A stretch of 64,000 bases of DNA, from positions 1 to 64,000 of the forward strand of contig MU858173.1 of the NCBI GenBank assembly GCA_033297075.1. Reading direction: 5' to 3'. The translations under genes were made by a program, and so were the position numbers. Within the stretch, counting starts at the first letter, position 1. Each line of letters opens with the position of its first letter. A model generated the notes under the pieces. It was given only the letters and a program-made list of their open reading frames with translations. It ran no database searches and was not told where the DNA came from. Positions 25,247 through 64,000 of this stretch are shown here, in pieces. This DNA comes from Rhypophila decipiens. Lineage: Eukaryota > Ascomycota > Sordariomycetes > Sordariales > Naviculisporaceae.

Positions 25247-28200
25247 TTAACTGCCGCGAAATTCCGTAAATTCCGGTGGTGGTGACCGTGGTGGTGGCCT
25301 TCCATCAAAAGTCACAGTCAATTTCAACCTCTCAATCTCTTCCTCGCTGTATATTTTGCGCATCTCCTCAAATCCTGCCGGGCTGACGAACATTCCTTGC
25401 TGGATGATTTTTCGTACCTCCTCTTCCGGTTCAACATAATCACGGTTAAGCTGTGCGAGGGGCGCGAACCTATGAGCACCCGACACGGAATTGTTTCTGA
25501 TATCTGTTCCCTGGGTTGGAAATTTCGCATCTTTCCAAGCAATTGAGTCGTTCTCCTGACTTGGATGAAACTTCACAGTGTCGAGTAGTTCCTCGTACTT
25601 GATGCGGGCATCCTCACTGGCCGACCACCTTGGCTGGACGATGCCGAGCACACCCTGGAGCAGCTTCAGTTGCACTCCGTTCGGAACAACATTTCCTCCC
25701 AAGATATAGTCGCAGTCCCACCAGCAACCCATAAGGTCTACGAGCTGTTCCTCGGGCTCTTTGGATCGATCTTCCCAGTGGGCCTTGCGGACTATCATGC
25801 CGATAGTGTCTCGTATTAGCTGGAACTGATAGTTAGTGCGGGTTCCAGTAATTCTTGGCAAATTCCACCAGCTTCCTTCGACCAGTCTCCTCCGTATCGT
25901 TCGGTCCCACTCGCATCTCAGTATCACCGGTAGCACTTGGAATGATACTGATAGGACTAGTCTCCAGCTCGATATACTCGATCGTTGCCTGTTCCATGTC
26001 GTCTCCAGGCAGATTGAGCCCAAGGTTGCTGTATTGCTCATTTCCGTACATTGGTAGCTCCTCGTCACCTAGTTCGCCTTGAAGCGAGGTTTCATAGCCG
26101 TCGACGCTTCGTGGCAGAATCCTCAAGGCAACTTCATTTCCCGATCGCCTTGCGATATCCTGTGCGGTCAGGCCCTGTTTGTTTCGCATAGTGGTGATGT
26201 CAGCTCCCTGCTTATGATTACGAAATAGGAAGCTGAAAATGGCGTTCCTGCCCATTAACACTGCCAAGTGCACAGGCGCGTTGCCATAAAAGTCATGCTT
26301 ATCCAGCGGTGAGTCTGCCTTCAACAGGGCCATGACGATCTCCAGTGAGCCGTTCATGATGGCACAATGTAATGGGGTGCCATATTGATTGTTGCAGAGG
26401 TCGAGTTTTGGCTTCTCTTGCTCATGCTGTAAAATGGCCTGGACAATCTCAAGATTGCCGTTCAGACAGGCTTTGTGAAGGACCGTCATGCCGTACTTGT
26501 CGGTGTGGTTGACAATGGCGCCATTCTCGAGCAGGATCGACAAGTTTGTCCTAAATGAGCAGCTATGAAGTGCTGTTCTTCCGTGCTTATCCTCGATGTT
26601 GAGCAGCTTGGGACACAGCTTCAAGAGCCAACTTGTTGCTCGGTTCGACGGTCCTGTAACGGCCATGTGCAACGGGGTTCGACCCATGCTGTCCATTGGA
26701 GGAGCACGTTCCGCCTCGAAACATCTGGTGTTCGAACTAATGATCTCAAGAATGTGAGTACTGTCCGGAGTGTCTCTTCGGGCGGCCATCTGCGCTGCAA
26801 ATATGACGGGAAGGTCGTATATGTTCTTGTTTCCTGGCTTTGTTAGGGGCAAGGACGCGAGGTCTGGCATAGCATGAACCAGAGCCGCAAACGTATCGAC
26901 ACTGTGGAAGTCAATGGCTTGAGAAATCGCCGTCATTCCGTTAGGTGCAACGGTATCGAGGCAGGTAAGTTCTCGCAGGATTTCGATCGTCCGAGACAAC
27001 CGAAGGTTCCGTTCATTGCCGTGAATGGCTTCCTCCTCCAGTGGTGACAAGTAGCTCAGCGCGCAACCAAATGCCCTATTTGCGGCAGTCTTCAGCTTGG
27101 TTGCGACGCCATCGGCCTCTAACAGCGCTTTGAGAATCTCCGAGTTGTGGTATTTTGCCGCTAGGTGTATTGCGTTCCATGTCACCCGAGGATCTGACGG
27201 GGGGTATTGGCTTTCCTCATACACAGGAAGCAACGGGTCGGCTCCGCATGAAAGAAGATACTGTACAGCAGAGAGGTTGTTGACCGCCAGGGCAAATGCA
27301 AGTGGCGAGCCACTCAACCGAGTTGGCCATTGAGGGTGTATGGTATGAAATATGGGACACCTGGTGTGGAGGCTATCCCGTCGGTCCCGGGCGGGTTGGT
27401 CATGGTAGTAGATGTGCAGTCTCTTATCACGGAGCTCAATGTCATTGATCATTGCGATACGGTGATAAATAGAACAGTGACAGGCGTCAGAGATGATACT
27501 GGCAGTGCTGGAAACGTCTCCCTGTACTGTTCCCAACTGGTCAGGATCGGCCACGAGCACCTCGTTGTCGTCGATAAAATCCAGGACCAAAATGTTCGGA
27601 GTTTTGTGTTTATCTGTTGACTTGAGTAGAGCTCTGAGTTTGTCGAGATATGTGCTCGTCGCACTACTAGTCTCAGGCTCTCCGTCGGAATGGATCAAAT
27701 GGCCAAAAACCTGAGCAACTGGATGCGAAAGGCTCTGCGCTGTCTGAGCATGTCGGGAAGCCTGTGCAAGGGACGGCGCTGTCCCGAACCCCAGCTTGTA
27801 GCATATGGCTAACTGCCATGTGGCTTCTGCGCTGTCTCGGATTCGTGTGTTCGAAACAAGGGTTTGGAGGTTGTTAAAGATCTGCACCTGGTGTTCCCAA
27901 ACCATCTCTCGGTCCAGATCAGGGCGGAACATCTGTTGTGTCGTTATCATTTGCTGTCAGTAAATAGGCAACTCCTTTTGTTGCTTCTTTAGGGCTGCTA
28001 GTGAACGAGTAGAACGTACATCATATGACCACTCTGAGTCACCAAGATGTAGAGCAATCATCGCCTGCAATACCTGAGTTCCGGCCGAGCTATGAAGTGG
28101 TAACAAGTTAGCTACTGTACTTGTGAGGTCCAAAGACCCTAGGAGTCTACTTACTGCCAGGTCGACATAAATGGATAGCTGACAAGGTTGGATCTGCGCT

Positions 28201-29451
28201 GAAAGGGATCAACTTGCAAAGCCATAGCCAACCCGGCACATAGAATCGACCTCCGAAGAGAATTTGCATGCCCAGTCAGCCTTGGGATCGATTTCTTGGC
28301 CAAGTCCAGCAAAGTCTCTGGGTGTTCAACATAGCAAGGGGCTTCACTGGCACTGTCTGGGACCAAGCCTTCATCGACGATGTGTCGAAAATACTCCTTG
28401 CCGTCGAGAAATGTCTCCCAGACCAGGAGTCCAAAAGACCAAACATCGCATTTATGCATTTCATCAGATGCAATGGGGTATTGATCTTGCTCGTGGACTT
28501 CTGGAGCATTGTAGCTGGTAATGGATGATGTCAGTCGGCTACATTATCTTGTAACATGGAGAGATGGAGCTCACGGAAATTTTCCTGTATATCTCAGCGA
28601 CTCATCATTAGGATCTTGCCCGCTATTTCCGAGGACGATCGAGTGGCCAAAGTCAGCAAGTTTGGCAATGGTACCTAATGGACGATCGCCACAGTCGAAT
28701 ATCAGGACGTTGTCAAGCTTTGTGTCCCCATGAACGATACCACATGCATGTAGGCCAGCAATGGCAGAGGCTACATCACCAAGAAGAATCTCTTTGTGCT
28801 GAATCGAGAGCTTGGGACTGGCGGCGAGGAGGTACTCCCGAAAGGTGCCATGGGCTGCATAAGGTACCAGAAGATATGGCATGATCTGACCGCCTGTGTT
28901 TGATGGTCCAGATTGGCCTGATCCACCTCCAGAAGATTTGTGCCACCCGTAGCCAAGCACATCGATGATATTTGGATGGGCTCGGAGTGGGTGGTGACGC
29001 ATAATTCGAAGCTCAAGGATCACGGACTTCAGTCTGCGTCGATACGTCGAGTCGTTTGGAGAAGAGCCGATCTTGAGCTGTTTGATAGCGAGAAGAAGTT
29101 CATGATTCCTGTTGTTGCGCACCTGGCATCTATGCACGATGAAGGTCTCACCCTCACCGAGCTTCTCCTCGCGCTGGACTTGGCTCCACGGACATAGCGG
29201 CAAGCTGAGAGACTTGACGGTCTGAATAACGCCATCCAGGCCCAGGCTGGACGCCTCTGCAGGATTTGAGAAAGCAGCAGAACTAAGAGTGGATATGCGC
29301 GTCCGCGAAGAACCTGTCATCCAACTCAGCGTGGAAGCCACCGACGCTGAGCTGCTCTGTTATCGCCGATGACGTTAGGTACGGACCAAGGCCAAAAGCT
29401 GGGACTGATGAATAGAAGAGTTCGTCTTACACTTAAATCACCGAATTCCAT
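25247..29451 (-). CDS. protein kinase with SEL1-like and ankyrin repeats
   Basis: Six or seven exons on the minus strand: 29451-29431, 29356-28575, 28514-28155, 28089-28020, 27953-25869 and 25819-25247; about 1296 residues. The kinase domain (about residues 65-385) is intact: LGEGETFIVH loop, AIK Lys, an alpha-C Glu (ILELRIMRH), HGDTKLDN catalytic loop (HGD for HRD), DFG, YNAPE, and DVWSFGLLVWE. A SEL1-like stretch (WQLAICYKLGFGTAPSLAQA) follows near residue 450. Roughly six to ten ankyrin repeats occupy about 630-1030 (for example GRTPLHMAV, GRTALHSCS, GMTVLHKAC, GTPLHCAIM). The last junction is unsure: a weak donor GTGGAA at 25868 joined to TTCCAG at 25820 after ACTAAC keeps frame. Without it the protein stops at 25833, losing about 190 Pro/Glu-rich residues. 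It diverges from the HeLo-pseudokinase gene. Probable role: a signalling kinase that senses or relays through ankyrin contacts. Confidence 0.8.
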
Positions 29452-29756
29452 CGTAGCAATGGCTCACGAACACTGCACGGCAGCAGTTTTGCTCAGTGCT
29501 TTAATGCAAATGAAGGCTGCTGTGTTTCAGGCAGAATCTGATTTCAGGTGTCAAGAACGGCAATTCACCGCATCACGTGTGTGATGTGCCAAAAATCGTG
29601 CATATTGCTCCTGCCTCAAACCTCCAAGTGGTACCATTCAGCTCAGCCCCCACGAACCCCGCAACTGTTCCAGACCCAAGTTGGTTCCCTCACTCGTGGC
29701 TTCCCTTTTCGTCTTCACCGGCCGAAACACGACTGGAGTACACTACAGCTGACAAA
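29452..29756. promoter_or_regulatory. shared bidirectional promoter of the kinase / HeLo-pseudokinase pair
   Basis: Only 305 bp separate the two start codons. No TATA box is obvious on either strand. A palindromic CACGTGTG stands at about 29574, a possible bHLH-type (E-box) site. Co-regulation of the two genes is inferred from the spacing. Confidence 0.5.
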
Positions 29757-31626
29757 ATGGACATCGCTGCTATGACAATCAAGGCGCTTGAGCTGATGTG
29801 GGTATTTGGGAACCAAACGGCAGAACTGATCATCACTTTCCGAGCGTTCGACAGCGTAAGGGCAGATTGTCTGTTTGTAGTACAAAGCCCTTTATTCTGA
29901 CACTCAACAGGATGCGAGACTCCTCGAGGCCAAGATCAGAGATGAGATTAGCACGGGAAAGTATATGAAGCATCTCCTGTTTGACTCTTCATCGGTAAGT
30001 TTAGTCTTTCTTGAGCATCTTTCTTTTGGTATTGTTCATAATATCTTGATAGTACTAGGTGTGATCTCGTTAACATCTTGACCCTTTGGACAATGATCTG
30101 TTCAGGTATATGATAGTAAAACACTTTTCGACCAGTTCGACTACGATGTACAGAGTCAGATCCTCGTCTTCTTCGAACAATCCACAGGAGTGCTGCATCA
30201 AGCCCTCCAAGTCCTCACCCGTCTCTTTGGAAACCGCGACTCGGACCCTCCCAAGCTCCTGGCTTCCTCGTCCGATGCCTCCTCCTTCAGTTCTGCATCA
30301 ACAGCCTTCACATACGAATATCCAAAAGCCCAGCAACACAATAGTCCAGGACTCGGGCCAAGCCTCCAAGTTGACCCCATCCCCCGAAAACCCAGCCCAC
30401 TCAAGCGGTTATGGTGGTCTGTCTACGACAAGCGGCGAATCGAGTCCATTCTAGCCGAATTCAGCGACCTCAATGCCCGGAATCTGAGAAAGATCCAGCT
30501 CTGGTGCCTTGGGGCGGAGCTGAGCGTTGATCGTGGCGGACATCTTTTGCGACTTGAGAGTGATCCAAATTCCAAAGCTCTGGGATTCGACCTCGACGCA
30601 AGACTTCAGATTTCCACCATCGAGGGTGTTTCAGGCCCTATGGACTCTGAAGAGCTGGAGGTTCAAGAGTCCAAGGTGCTGATCGGGGACATGCCTGCGA
30701 TTCAGGACGTGCTCGGAGGTCGGTATGGGATTTCACAGTGGGATGGGCGTCCGGTCCTTGTCGAGTACCGTAATTACGCACCCGAATCTCCGGTACCCGT
30801 CATGCTCGATGACCGCACCCGAGAGGTCATCGACCGCCTCGCCAAAGTCCTGCACCAGCCGAAAGAGACCATCTTCCGCATGCCCAATTGTCTTGGTTGG
30901 ACTAGCCAAGCGGAGCAGAACAGGGCGGCCCTATTCTTTGCTATTCCGGAAGGCTCCCAGCCGTCACCTATCAGTCTCCTTGACATAATCGTCTCATCAC
31001 CAACTACGCCGTCTTTGGGCAGCAGATTTACCCTCGCACTGCGATTAGCAGGCTGTATATCCCAACTTCAGCTCGTGAAATGGGTCCATGAAAGCTTCCG
31101 CAGCGAAAACATTCTCTTTTACCCTCGTGTTGACGTTAAACACGAGAACGCCGATGACCGATGCACGCCTCACAATATCGACCTCACCGAACCTTGGGTC
31201 CTTGGATTCGAAAACAGCAGACCAGATCCGTTTTTCTCGGCCGGACGCCCAGACAAGTGCCCTGAGCGAGACGTCTACCGCCATCCCAGCCGACAACAAA
31301 CACCAACGCAGCACTTCAACAAGCTGCACGACATCTACGCACTGGGAGTTGTGCTGCTGGAAATTGGCCTCTGGCAGGAAGCGCTGAGTCTGGAAAAAGG
31401 ACGGTTCGCCAAGGTGCGAGAGCCGCTGACGATCAAGAAACAACTCGTCAAGAATGCGGAAAAACGACTCGGGGCCAAGATGGGCAACCGATACCGGGAT
31501 GTTGTGGTCCGGTGTCTGGAGGGAAGATTCGAGGTTGTGAATGACACCAAGGAGGAACTGAAGCTGCAGCAGGCGTTTCGGGAAACTGTGGTCGATGTGT
31601 TGGAGAGGTCCGCAAACAACATCTGA
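29757..31626 (+). CDS. HeLo-like domain fused to pseudokinase (MLKL-like architecture)
   Basis: Three exons: 29757-29855, 29911-29994 and 30106-31626, 567 residues, all splices phase 0 with GTAAGG, GTAAGT donors. Residues 1-105 are helical and match the layout of fungal HeLo-type N termini: MDIAAMTIKALELMWVFG, then DARLLEAKIRDEIS, GKYMKHLLF and LFDQFDYDVQSQILVFF. A Ser/Pro-rich stretch follows, then a domain with the kinase fold (about 240-560). It has lost catalysis: the beta-3 Lys is missing (PVLVEYR), the catalytic loop is HESFRSEN with no Asp, and DFG is replaced by GFEN. The C-lobe landmarks YRHP and HDIYALGVVLLEIGLW remain. This is the fungal HeLo/DUF7580-like class. A membrane-acting death or incompatibility role is inferred from family knowledge; no amyloid motif was seen. 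Confidence 0.72.
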
Positions 31627-60226: not shown

Positions 60227-62323
60227 TCACTTCGTTCCCATCCGAATAACACCAGCGTCATCCAACACGCTATTCAGTTTCGTGTCCTTGATCGCTCCCA
60301 AGATAAAGTTCGTCGTCTCTGGCTCCTCGGGCTCGCCCACATGCACATACATCTGTCGTTTGCCACGCTGGCACTTGAACTTTTCCACCAAAAACGCCAA
60401 AGTTTGCGCCTCGTTCCCGTCTTCGCCCATGTAATCCGGGAACTCCTTCCTTGACAACGGCTTCTTGGCCAACTTCTCCTTGAACATGGCGAGGTTGGAA
60501 AAGACAGCGATGATAGACATCTTTGGGTGGTAGCTCTTTGACTCAGCCATCGCCGCCAAGAGTGCCAGTTCTTCCTTGATTGCGTTGCTTCCGTTTTCGT
60601 CCAAGTCGTACATGGCGAGGTCAAATATCTTGACATACGCCGTGGCGTCATACAAGACAATACTCCGCTTCCTCGGCAACAAGGGAGAGCAGCACGTCAG
60701 ACGAGTGAAGTCGATCCATGTAACAGAGAGAGCGTTGAAGTCAAAGGTGCCGCGGAATAGACTACGCTTGTCGTTGAGATAGAACATGTGGTAGTCCGCC
60801 GGAGCAGGCATGTAGTTCGGGGACGACACACGCCGGAAAGCGTCCATGACGATCCTGTTGTGAGCCTCGAGCCTGCCATTTCTGTAGCCGACATGCTTCT
60901 TGCAGGCTTCGCGGAACTGTTCAGAGGCCCAGAGCTTCTCGATGGGTTCGATGAGCTCCTGCAACACTGAGACGTCCAAAGCCTCTTCTTGTCCTGCCTG
61001 CGATTTCGGCGACGGAATTTTCTCATGCACTGATGTGAGATGTTGCAACTCGTCCTCGGTCCAGACATATCCAGCGTACCAGATCGCTGCCGAGACCATC
61101 TCCTTGAGCTCGATCAATACTTGGCGCCTAATCGTGTTGATATACATGGCCCTGCTGGTAGGTTCCATTCCAGAAGTTCCATGGGTCGAATAGCCCGTGC
61201 TCTTGGCCATGAACCGGTCCATGAGGAGTGACATGGAAGCATTGGAGCCGTTGGTCAAGATGACGCATTGCCTGTTGCGGTTGCCGAGATCAGCCTCGAT
61301 CTGTTTGTCGATGAGTTGGGATCGCTTCCGGGCCTCACGGGCTTCCCGGGCGGCCGAACGTTCGTCCTTGTCTAGTTGCTTGAGGATGGGCCAAGTGCTG
61401 GAGCGAGAGATGGATTGTCTCCGTGCGAGCTTCTCGGACGACTGCTCAGGTTGGGCCTTTTTGAGGACAGTCGTAGGCTTGGCTGGAGCAGGCAGTAAGA
61501 GAGAGCCGAGTGTGTAAAGTCCTGACTTCAGGCGAGCTGTGACAGACGGCGAATGGTCTCCATTGAAGTGGGTGGCGAGCTCAAGCCCGTCGTGTTTAAT
61601 CTCACCAAAGACCTCGCGGCTGGCATAGCTATCGAGCAGCAACTCCTGGTCCAGCAATGCTTTATAACCACTCGCCTTCAGCAAGACACCGAGTCCGGCC
61701 GAAAGATGATCGGCAAAGGGTTGAAACCGGCTGAGCACACCACTGATGCCTCCCTCTCGTTCCTCCGTCTCGATACTCAAAGTAATCTCTCTCTTCGGCC
61801 GCTTGTCATCGCCACTCCGGCGGACGCCTTTAAGCGACTCCTGGTCACTGTCGCTGTCATGACTAGCCTCCTTCCCCGCGCTTACCACAGTGACGTTCCC
61901 AAGGCGGACCCGCGGCGGAGGAGGAGGAGCAGATGCAGCAACAATCGGACACAACTTGTCGGCAAATGCCCTGCCGGTTGTGGCGCAGACATCCAAATCC
62001 CTATTGAACTGAGCACACACAATCGTCTCATCGTCCATCAAATATCCCCGGATCCGTTCCAGATTCTTCCTGATGCAAGACAACGAGGTTGCCATTCTCG
62101 ACACAGACGACAAAGTCGACGACTGTTGACCATGGAGATTGCCATACTGCCGCATGTGCCTGAGCGACACAATGGTGGTGTTGATGTCATCGCTGATGCG
62201 GGCAATTGTCACCAGTCTCCTGTTGGTCTCGGCCGACCTGGCAGGGGTCAAGGTCATGGTCATCTCCAATATCGTCGTCGTCGAAGTAGTAGTCGTCGTC
62301 GTCGTCGTCGTTAACGCCGCCAT
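60227..62323 (-). CDS. G-protein alpha-subunit-like protein with degenerate GTP-binding motifs
   Basis: Intronless, 698 residues; the ATG at 62323 is followed by a Thr run from a GTC/GAC microsatellite, and a later ATG (MTMTLTPARSAE) is an alternative. Residues 1-340 are unlike G-alpha (Ser-rich, basic, one long helix-rich part). From about 350 the order of a G-alpha subunit can be followed. A former P-loop (LTNGSNASMSLLMDRF) comes first. Then an all-helical insert (TIRRQVLIELKEMVSAAIWY), a switch region (RSLFRGTFDFNALSVTWIDF), and VFSNLAMFKEKLAKKPL where FLNKKDLF would be. Finally a G-alpha-type C terminus reads MYVHVGEPEEPETTNF and LNSVLDDAGVI. The GKST, DVGGQ, NKxD and TCAT motifs are all altered, and the N-terminal Gly/Cys lipid site is absent. 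It probably does not cycle GTP normally. Confidence 0.7.
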   Translation of the reverse strand: MAALTTTTTTTTTSTTTILEMTMTLTPARSAETNRRLVTIARISDDINTTIVSLRHMRQYGNLHGQQSSTLSSVSRMATSLSCIRKNLERIRGYLMDDETIVCAQFNRDLDVCATTGRAFADKLCPIVAASAPPPPPRVRLGNVTVVSAGKEASHDSDSDQESLKGVRRSGDDKRPKREITLSIETEEREGGISGVLSRFQPFADHLSAGLGVLLKASGYKALLDQELLLDSYASREVFGEIKHDGLELATHFNGDHSPSVTARLKSGLYTLGSLLLPAPAKPTTVLKKAQPEQSSEKLARRQSISRSSTWPILKQLDKDERSAAREAREARKRSQLIDKQIEADLGNRNRQCVILTNGSNASMSLLMDRFMAKSTGYSTHGTSGMEPTSRAMYINTIRRQVLIELKEMVSAAIWYAGYVWTEDELQHLTSVHEKIPSPKSQAGQEEALDVSVLQELIEPIEKLWASEQFREACKKHVGYRNGRLEAHNRIVMDAFRRVSSPNYMPAPADYHMFYLNDKRSLFRGTFDFNALSVTWIDFTRLTCCSPLLPRKRSIVLYDATAYVKIFDLAMYDLDENGSNAIKEELALLAAMAESKSYHPKMSIIAVFSNLAMFKEKLAKKPLSRKEFPDYMGEDGNEAQTLAFLVEKFKCQRGKRQMYVHVGEPEEPETTNFILGAIKDTKLNSVLDDAGVIRMGTK

Positions 62324-64000
62324 GGTGGGTATAGTAATAGTCGTCAATTGCTAGCAATACATGACATGCAATGCCAAGAAAGGGCAAGAGTAAAGGAAGA
62401 CGAAACAGGTGTGGATGGTATCTGTATGCGGGCGTGGGGTGTAATTGAAGAAGAGCAAAGGAAAAGGGTCAGCGGAGGGGAAGCGGGAAAGGGATGCAAC
62501 CTCTTTTTACTTTGGCAAAGTTCTAGAAGAACTGGAAACGGCCCCAAGATTGGCGCAAAAACCATGTAATAAGACACGGCAAAGCAGAGCGGCGTGAGCG
62601 AGATTCCAATGGGAATCGACAGACGGACGCTTCAACTGGCCTAAATTAGATTAACCAGCACCGGCACCAGCCAGCAAACACCAGTCAGATCCCGTCGGTG
62701 ATGTCCACCCGCGCGGCACATGACTGCATTGTGCCGGCAAGAAGGGAAGGAGAGAACGAGAAAACAACAAACGACAAAACGGGAAAAGCGAAGACCGAAC
62801 CAGAAAGTCTTGTCAATGCATCCGGGCAAACTGTATTTGCATTCATGGAAGGAATGGCAACACATGGGCAAGAATCCCCCATCGAACCTTCCTCGCCGCG
62901 CCGCTTGTTGCTGCCCTTGTTGGTCGGATGTAACCCCGCCCCTCTCGCCTTGGACCACTGCCTGAAGAAAACAGTGGAAACCCGCATGATTGGGGGCCCG
63001 TGGAATTCCAGAAAACTTGAGAAAATGGTACCCAACCCCATCCAAGGTGGAGGATTTTTACACGTGTTCCCGCCCCAGGAGATGCACAGATCGGCCATGA
63101 GCTGCCATCGTTCGTTTCGGAGTGAGTGTTGGCATCATGGAATCGATGGATCGCAACAGGAGAGGCGTCCGGGCGGTCAGCCAGCGCCATAAACGAAGCC
63201 ATCATGACCCCGCTGGAACTATTGGGGCCGTTGCAGCCACTTGCCCGAACAACACCATCCGTCAAGTGTCAATGGACTTTCACGATAAGCGGGGGGAAGA
63301 AAAAAATGCGAAAAAAACATTCCGAATTCCAACGCCAATGGCCCGAACCCCTTCTTGGCAGTGATTATTGAAGTCTGGAATTCTGCGAAAAGAGCGCTTG
63401 TAAGCTTAGCAAAACGTCGCTAACACCTGAATGGGCAGTTGAGGCGACAGAGGATGGATTCCATTACCAGATCGTTTGTTCAGTTGGCAGAATGCCCCGA
63501 AACCTGGCAAAATACCCGTAGCAAAAAGGCTAGCATCGGCGTTGTGTGCAAAAAGGGTCCACCTCCCCCCAGGAAAATTTCCAAAAATGAAGTGGAAATT
63601 CCAAGATTCCCCAGAAAAAAAGCCTTCTTCACCGATCGCGATTCGCGACCGTTGATGACGGACGGACCGGCCCCCGCCCCTTTTTTACCGCCTCGGACTT
63701 ACCGTCCAGGGGTCCACGGATCGAGCTAATCAGCCCTAGTCTGAACCCCTGTCGTTTTCTCGCCTCACCTGAACCTGCCGCCTCAGGCTTTTCTTCACGT
63801 TACATTTCCATTCAGCTCGGGAATAAATCACCTTTGCTCGTGCATTTCGGCTTTATTCCCGTGAATAGGGGCAGTCAGCATGATTGCTACAGTATACTTC
63901 AACAAACGTCATCCCGTTGTATTTGTGAAGTTGAGCTACGTTCTCAATCAGCATCATTCAATCGAATTAGGCAATGTCCGAAATGACATTCGGTGACATC
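62324..64000. other. gene-poor right end
   Basis: 1.7 kb with no supportable gene, likely the promoter of the G-alpha-like gene and possibly of a gene beyond the window. Open frames at 62641-63265 on both strands overlap and lack features. Confidence 0.5.

Follow-up and report, generated by a model that had tools for sequence, protein, structure and literature searches.

In Rhypophila decipiens, two divergent genes on contig MU858173.1 (positions 1 to 64,000 of the forward strand, the 64,000-nucleotide stretch referred to below as the window) encode a predicted active kinase followed by ankyrin repeats and a pseudokinase preceded by a putative HeLo domain. The products of both genes very probably act together, and we hypothesize, with somewhat less assurance, that they form a two-gene switch: the kinase acts on the pseudokinase and thereby governs a HeLo effector, in the manner of RIPK3 and MLKL. 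The computed basis of this reading comprises the HeLo domain, the dead pseudokinase motifs, the intact kinase motifs, linkage across fungal classes, concordant gene trees, and kinase–pseudokinase pairing and fusion repeated within one genome. The two-gene functional module suggested by an initial annotation made from the sequence is well supported, since the pseudokinase N terminus is identified as HeLo and relatives of the two genes lie adjacent in other fungi and recur as paralogous pairs in this genome.

Exon maps and annotated relatives confirmed that the start codons of the head-to-head genes are 305 bp apart; the pair spans 25833-31626. The plus-strand gene (29757-31626) has three exons with GT/AG splice sites, and its 567-amino-acid product is 96% identical to an annotated protein of Rhypophila sp. 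PSN 637. The minus-strand gene (29451-25833) has five exons, its product being 99% identical to the annotated R. decipiens protein P0121, which possibly comes from a very close isolate. A chance reading of open reading frames (ORFs) is excluded because both genes are conserved in other fungi. The features of the locus are as follows.

29757..29855, plus strand: HeLo-pseudokinase gene exon 1, with the start codon at 29757 and the N-terminal helix of the HeLo domain (GT/AG; orthologues aligned here)
29911..29994, plus strand: HeLo-pseudokinase gene exon 2, HeLo domain (from the orthologue alignment)
30106..31626, plus strand: HeLo-pseudokinase gene exon 3, with the HeLo remainder (to about 30492), the linker, the pseudokinase domain (about 30646-31623) and the stop codon (31624-31626)
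31237..31239, plus strand: codon of Ser439 in the pseudokinase activation loop, a candidate phosphoacceptor (coordinate from the exon map)
29452..29756, no strand: intergenic region shared by both genes, a candidate bidirectional promoter
29431..29451, minus strand: kinase-ankyrin gene exon 1, start codon at 29451 (agrees with the orthologue P0121)
28575..29356, minus strand: kinase-ankyrin gene exon 2, with the kinase N lobe, β3 Lys, HGDxKxDN and DFG
28155..28514, minus strand: kinase-ankyrin gene exon 3, with the APE motif and the kinase C lobe
28020..28089, minus strand: kinase-ankyrin gene exon 4 (agrees with P0121)
25833..27932, minus strand: kinase-ankyrin gene exon 5, with a helical region (SEL1-like by eye), the ankyrin repeats and the stop at 25833 (exon start as in annotated P0121)
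25247..26068, minus strand: open frame of 273 codons, in a different phase from the kinase gene, whose 3′ end it overlaps; by eye it resembles the extended C termini of longer orthologues

The pair had initially been drawn as 25247..31626; its right-hand limit stands, but the minus gene ends at 25833 according to P0121, and 25247-26068 is a different frame. The latter matched no Pfam family at E <= 1, and an intron lacking annotation or a frame change could tie it to the kinase gene.

Profile–profile comparison (hhalign, with controls) matched the N terminus of the plus-strand protein to HeLo (PF14479) at E 3.4e-9 over 181 columns, in agreement with the HeLo-type region predicted there; the match covers about residues 1-190 instead of the 1-110 first assigned. 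Pfam detected HeLo at E <= 0.01 in 50 of the 67 orthologues, and the predicted model contains long helices at residues 2-27, 34-57, 74-102 and 159-197. By profile, the N terminus is a HeLo domain. The N-terminal helix has a median hydropathy of 0.95. As initially described, the kinase fold that follows has lost the β3 Lys, the catalytic Asp and DFG, and the catalytic motifs are gone across all 67 aligned orthologues. Residues 349-563 match DUF7580 (PF24476) at 36.8 bits against a cut-off of 27, and 63 of the 67 orthologues carry this family at E <= 0.01. Residue 439 in the activation loop is Ser in 65 orthologues and Thr in the other two, a conservation compatible with activation by an upstream kinase. 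The protein is conserved over its full length, mostly at 37-53% identity beyond its nearest relatives.

The minus-strand protein consists of a kinase domain, then a helical stretch, then ankyrin repeats (predicted model: predicted local distance difference test 71.5, predicted template modelling score 0.58). Alignment of 27 orthologues bore out the intact kinase motifs reported for this gene: the catalytic Asp, the DFG Asp and APE are invariant, the β3 Lys occurs in all 26 orthologues that can be read at that position (the remaining one has a gap), and the HRD motif reads HGD. Judged by these motifs, the product is a catalytically intact kinase. Of the repeats initially read after the kinase, the ankyrin part held and the SEL1 part did not, with no Pfam SEL1 match in the window frames (E <= 1) or in P0121 (E <= 0.01); Pfam found SEL1 in 3 of the 27 orthologues, and two paralogues gave weak matches (E 0.016 and 0.0043). 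The Pfam scan returned only kinase and ankyrin families above the cut-off; RHIM was not specifically searched. The kinase exon matched 17 PDB sequences at E <= 0.001, the best being a MAPKK-like protein and ULK1, with ULK1/2 and IKK-beta also present and no RIPK among them. The active kinase is thus not RIPK-like by sequence, and of the initial label 'RIPK-MLKL-like' the layout stands and the mechanism is plausible, while the kinase affinity falls away. RIPK4 and ANKK1 also have a kinase followed by ankyrin repeats; this likeness looks convergent, and no RIPK appeared among the PDB matches.

The same pair was then sought in other fungi, as the initial annotation had proposed, and relatives of the two genes proved to be neighbours there as well. 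At E <= 0.001 the plus-strand protein had 192 relatives, the best 120 of which were used; by organism name these spread through Pezizomycotina and include many names that we take to belong to Eurotiomycetes and Leotiomycetes. For the minus-strand protein, the best 32 of 48 kinase matches were used (P0121-P0152, E <= 2.2e-36), the remaining 16 being weak, partly animal or oomycete, and left out. Linkage was assigned by the same organism name (one pair is nameless) together with an equally long longest contig, and adjacency by consecutive locus tags. Fourteen of the 32 kinase matches share a contig with a HeLo-pseudokinase match: those of Annulohypoxylon bovei, Hypomontagnella monticulosa, Hypoxylon sp. 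FL1150, Rostrohypoxylon terebratum, Trichoderma viride, Cenococcum geophilum, Fusarium equiseti, Monosporascus sp., two Bathelium assemblies, one 8,166-bp contig, Diplodia corticola, Periconia macrospinosa and Coniocarpon cinnabarinum. Locus tags are consecutive in 7 of the 14 pairs (279131/279132, 007811/007812, 004124/004125, 008748/008747, 004405/004404, 004662/004663 and 005393/005392); in Cenococcum and Diplodia the evidence of linkage is no more than a common contig, 417 kb and 2.1 Mb long respectively. The linked pairs span three classes, Sordariomycetes, Dothideomycetes and Arthoniomycetes, with Bathelium, Diplodia and Periconia placed in the classes to which they presumably belong. 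Searching with a profile built from the kinase alignment gave 47 matches at E <= 1e-20 and no further named orthologues; its new matches (P0169-P0180) were mostly ankyrin proteins of other kinds.

Gene trees were built from the 14 pairs and Rhypophila, whose two proteins stem from two isolates. The kinase and HeLo-pseudokinase trees contain the same well-supported groupings, with deep nodes unsure in both owing to long branches, and the distance matrices of the two genes correlate at r 0.94, a value that 2000 permutations of the labels did not approach (maximum 0.53). Cenococcum (Dothideomycetes) clusters with F. equiseti (support 100/98 and 100/99), as does Monosporascus (Xylariales) with T. 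viride (100/100 in each tree). Both groupings contradict taxonomy, so that joint transfer or joint sorting of the two genes is probable.

A search of the R. decipiens genome with P0001, the closest relative of the plus-strand protein, revealed 19 pseudokinase loci. In three further places, a gene for a pseudokinase with a HeLo or HeLo-like N terminus is arranged head to head with one for an intact kinase. At C139 (L025), a minus-strand kinase with sub-threshold SEL1 and ankyrin repeats faces a plus-strand HeLo-pseudokinase (HeLo E 0.00037, just under the cut-off) across 410 bp between start codons; at C87 (L026), a minus-strand HeLo-pseudokinase (HeLo E 4.8e-15) faces a plus-strand kinase-ankyrin gene across 637 bp; at C154 (L042), the pseudokinase N terminus is HeLo-like by eye without a Pfam match, and the facing kinase, 505 bp away, has no detected ankyrins. 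HET-domain genes adjoin the HeLo-pseudokinase genes of two of these pairs (L025 6894-8438 and L026 281-2215). C224 and C26 also carry head-to-head kinase and pseudokinase genes, the pseudokinase N termini having no assigned domain, while kinase-ankyrin and pseudokinase genes lie tail to tail at C271 (L045) and in tandem, about 2.4 kb apart, at C1 (L046). Kinase and pseudokinase share one open frame at C6 (L028 2955-5363, checked by reading), C62, C79 and C128; at C6 a further kinase gene (L028 6187-8998, plus strand) stands head to head with the fused gene.

At C1 (L046 322-2758) and C271 (L045 4900-7000), a caspase-like stretch (YYGGH...LDCC / YYAGH...LDCC) precedes the pseudokinase; that of C1 matches Pfam Peptidase_C14 at E 0.002, below the cut-off, and that of C271 was recognised by eye. 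From these sequences, it seems that the pseudokinase can be joined to different effectors.

The association exceeds chance expectation: of the 15 unfused pseudokinase loci, 7 have a kinase match no more than 5 kb away, where 0.5 to 1.3 would be expected (P 3e-7 to 1.4e-4), and 6 of 14 do so when the window locus is removed (P 4e-6 to 8e-4). C1 was not counted here, its genes being 7 kb apart by match coordinates. As a contrast set we used 13 other DUF7580 loci (L029-L041), of a different, more degenerate sequence type and sorted by eye. A kinase profile scan found a kinase in each of the 8 loci where a pair or fusion was already known (L025, L026, L028, L042-L046) and in 1 of the 13 contrast loci (C363, L033), where no intact catalytic motif was present and other frames lay between. 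The five best kinase-domain matches to the minus-strand protein (C129, which is the window locus, C139, C271, C1 and C87) each adjoin a pseudokinase.

Several further sequences were recorded. At C363, the DUF7580-type gene (L033 2073-4248) is followed on the same strand by a subtilase (Peptidase S8) sequence, possibly as one gene. Two HeLo proteins elsewhere in the genome, L018 (C26 266432-266977) and L023 (C39 114347-114976), have C termini that by eye resemble HET-S-type repeated amyloid motifs. In the window itself, a 707-codon frame (60227-62350) matches G-protein alpha (70 bits, above the cut-off) and has a long N-terminal extension.

By analogy with RIPK3–MLKL, signalling from kinase to pseudokinase with cell death as the outcome is likeliest. 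The minus-gene product would be sensor and switch, its ankyrin repeats binding a ligand or guarded protein and controlling the intact kinase domain. The plus-gene product would be the effector, held inactive by a dead kinase domain that restrains the HeLo domain. The kinase would engage the pseudokinase, most likely phosphorylating the conserved activation-loop Ser/Thr439, and the released HeLo domain would then form oligomers in the membrane, with death or permeabilisation of the hyphal compartment as the result. The likeness to RIPK3–MLKL, here known from sequence, lies in the combination of an active kinase with a pseudokinase bearing an N-terminal, putatively membrane-targeting helical bundle. 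As in MLKL, the kinase domain without catalytic motifs is C-terminal, with GFE aligned at the place of MLKL's DFG; RAF, RIPK1 and LIMK folds are among its best matches. Given its HeLo relationship by sequence, the N terminus may correspond to the MLKL bundle. Unlike RIPK3, the fungal kinase continues into ankyrin repeats.

A number of observations weigh against this interpretation. Pfam scored HeLo in the window protein itself at E 0.03, below the cut-off, and found none in P0001 at E <= 0.01. In the PDB sequence search the pseudokinase's top four matches were MLKL, weak and short (E 6e-4 to 5e-3), and in the structure comparison first place went to RAF kinases, with BRAF at their head, and not to MLKL. 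That comparison covered mainly residues 242-567 and scarcely the N-terminal 241, so missing HeLo or MLKL entries are no evidence there. Among the 32 best kinase matches, 18 have no partner among the best 120 of 192 HeLo-pseudokinase matches; one of them lacks a contig and P0151 lacks a kinase family, and clustering at 90% together with the limit to 120 matches can account for the 18 without proving so. Within the genome, the catalytic motifs of the putative C224 and C26 kinases are spread over more than one frame, the C271 kinase has DFS for DFG, and 7 of the 19 pseudokinase loci (C117, C209, C2, C167, C46, C251 and C52), four of them carrying HeLo, have no kinase nearby. For six of the seven this absence is weak, as the kinase search also overlooked the kinase of the pair described here; at C117, 9 kb of sequence were read, and C251 lies at a contig edge. 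Linkage, finally, can stem from co-regulation alone.

Pseudokinases act as allosteric partners or scaffolds of kinases in STRAD–LKB1, JAK JH2 and Gcn2. Here too the pseudokinase might switch on the kinase for an ordinary signalling output, the HeLo-type bundle only placing the complex at the membrane, an alternative we regard as unlikely. The four fused frames and the two pseudokinases that follow a caspase-like stretch instead of HeLo, beside kinase genes, make kinase–pseudokinase contact the constant part, and Gcn2 reportedly needs its pseudokinase domain for high kinase output. However, in tests to date HeLo and HELL domains have acted as membrane-targeting death effectors, according to a 2025 review (PMC12881547). 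The alternative caspase-like N terminus is likewise a death-type domain.

It is more doubtful still that the genes are mere neighbours with a common promoter and separate functions, for example in sexual development. Head-to-head fungal genes are often co-regulated, but promoter sharing fails to explain pairing that recurs in diverged paralogues in head-to-head, tandem and tail-to-tail orientation and as single frames, or two gene trees that agree against taxonomy. That the pair is a heterokaryon-incompatibility locus, polymorphic between strains, as the non-self recognition role initially suggested would imply, is highly improbable: het genes do include HeLo-type domains (PMC12881547) and HET-domain genes stand beside two paralogous pairs, but full-length conservation across fungi and near identity to both annotated Rhypophila proteins (for P0121 perhaps reflecting the close isolate) argue against a fast-evolving locus.

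The favoured kinase-to-pseudokinase module can be set beside known systems. In plant MLKLs, as in the plus-strand protein, a kinase-like domain comes after a helical N-terminal one, and we know of no linked partner kinase for these plant proteins. HET-S/NWD2 and HELLP/PNT1 are described as adjacent sensor and HeLo-type effector genes (PMC12881547; PMC10197012); the sensor-next-to-effector arrangement is shared, whereas the partner here is a kinase with ankyrin repeats and not an NLR. The available text of PMC12881547 further presents fungal HeLo effectors as acting downstream of NLRs via amyloid motifs, or as NLR parts, mentions plant MLKL homologues, and shows in one figure legend fungal HELL proteins with a kinase/pseudokinase domain, reminiscent of MLKL. 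HELL-kinase/pseudokinase proteins are therefore already known; unlike the present pair, no linked active kinase gene is described for them in that text. No account of a linked active kinase, and no use of the term DUF7580, turned up in the literature searched, with most subscription journals outside it, and the linked active kinase is apparently the new part.

Together, these results raise the possibility, which we put a little short of even, that filamentous ascomycetes possess a long-standing family of two-gene death modules, duplicated and at times transferred as a unit, in which a sensor-solenoid kinase is wired to a pseudokinase with exchangeable killers (HeLo; caspase-like), giving a necroptosis-like switch without NLRs or amyloids. 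The 2025 review calls for broader study of fungal HeLo/four-helix-bundle proteins and of necroptosis conservation in fungi (PMC12881547). The linked kinase and HeLo-pseudokinase, found from Sordariomycetes to Arthoniomycetes, would offer a genetically tractable test for an MLKL-type kinase-to-pseudokinase trigger in fungi, and may allow one to ask whether such a trigger is ancestral or convergent.

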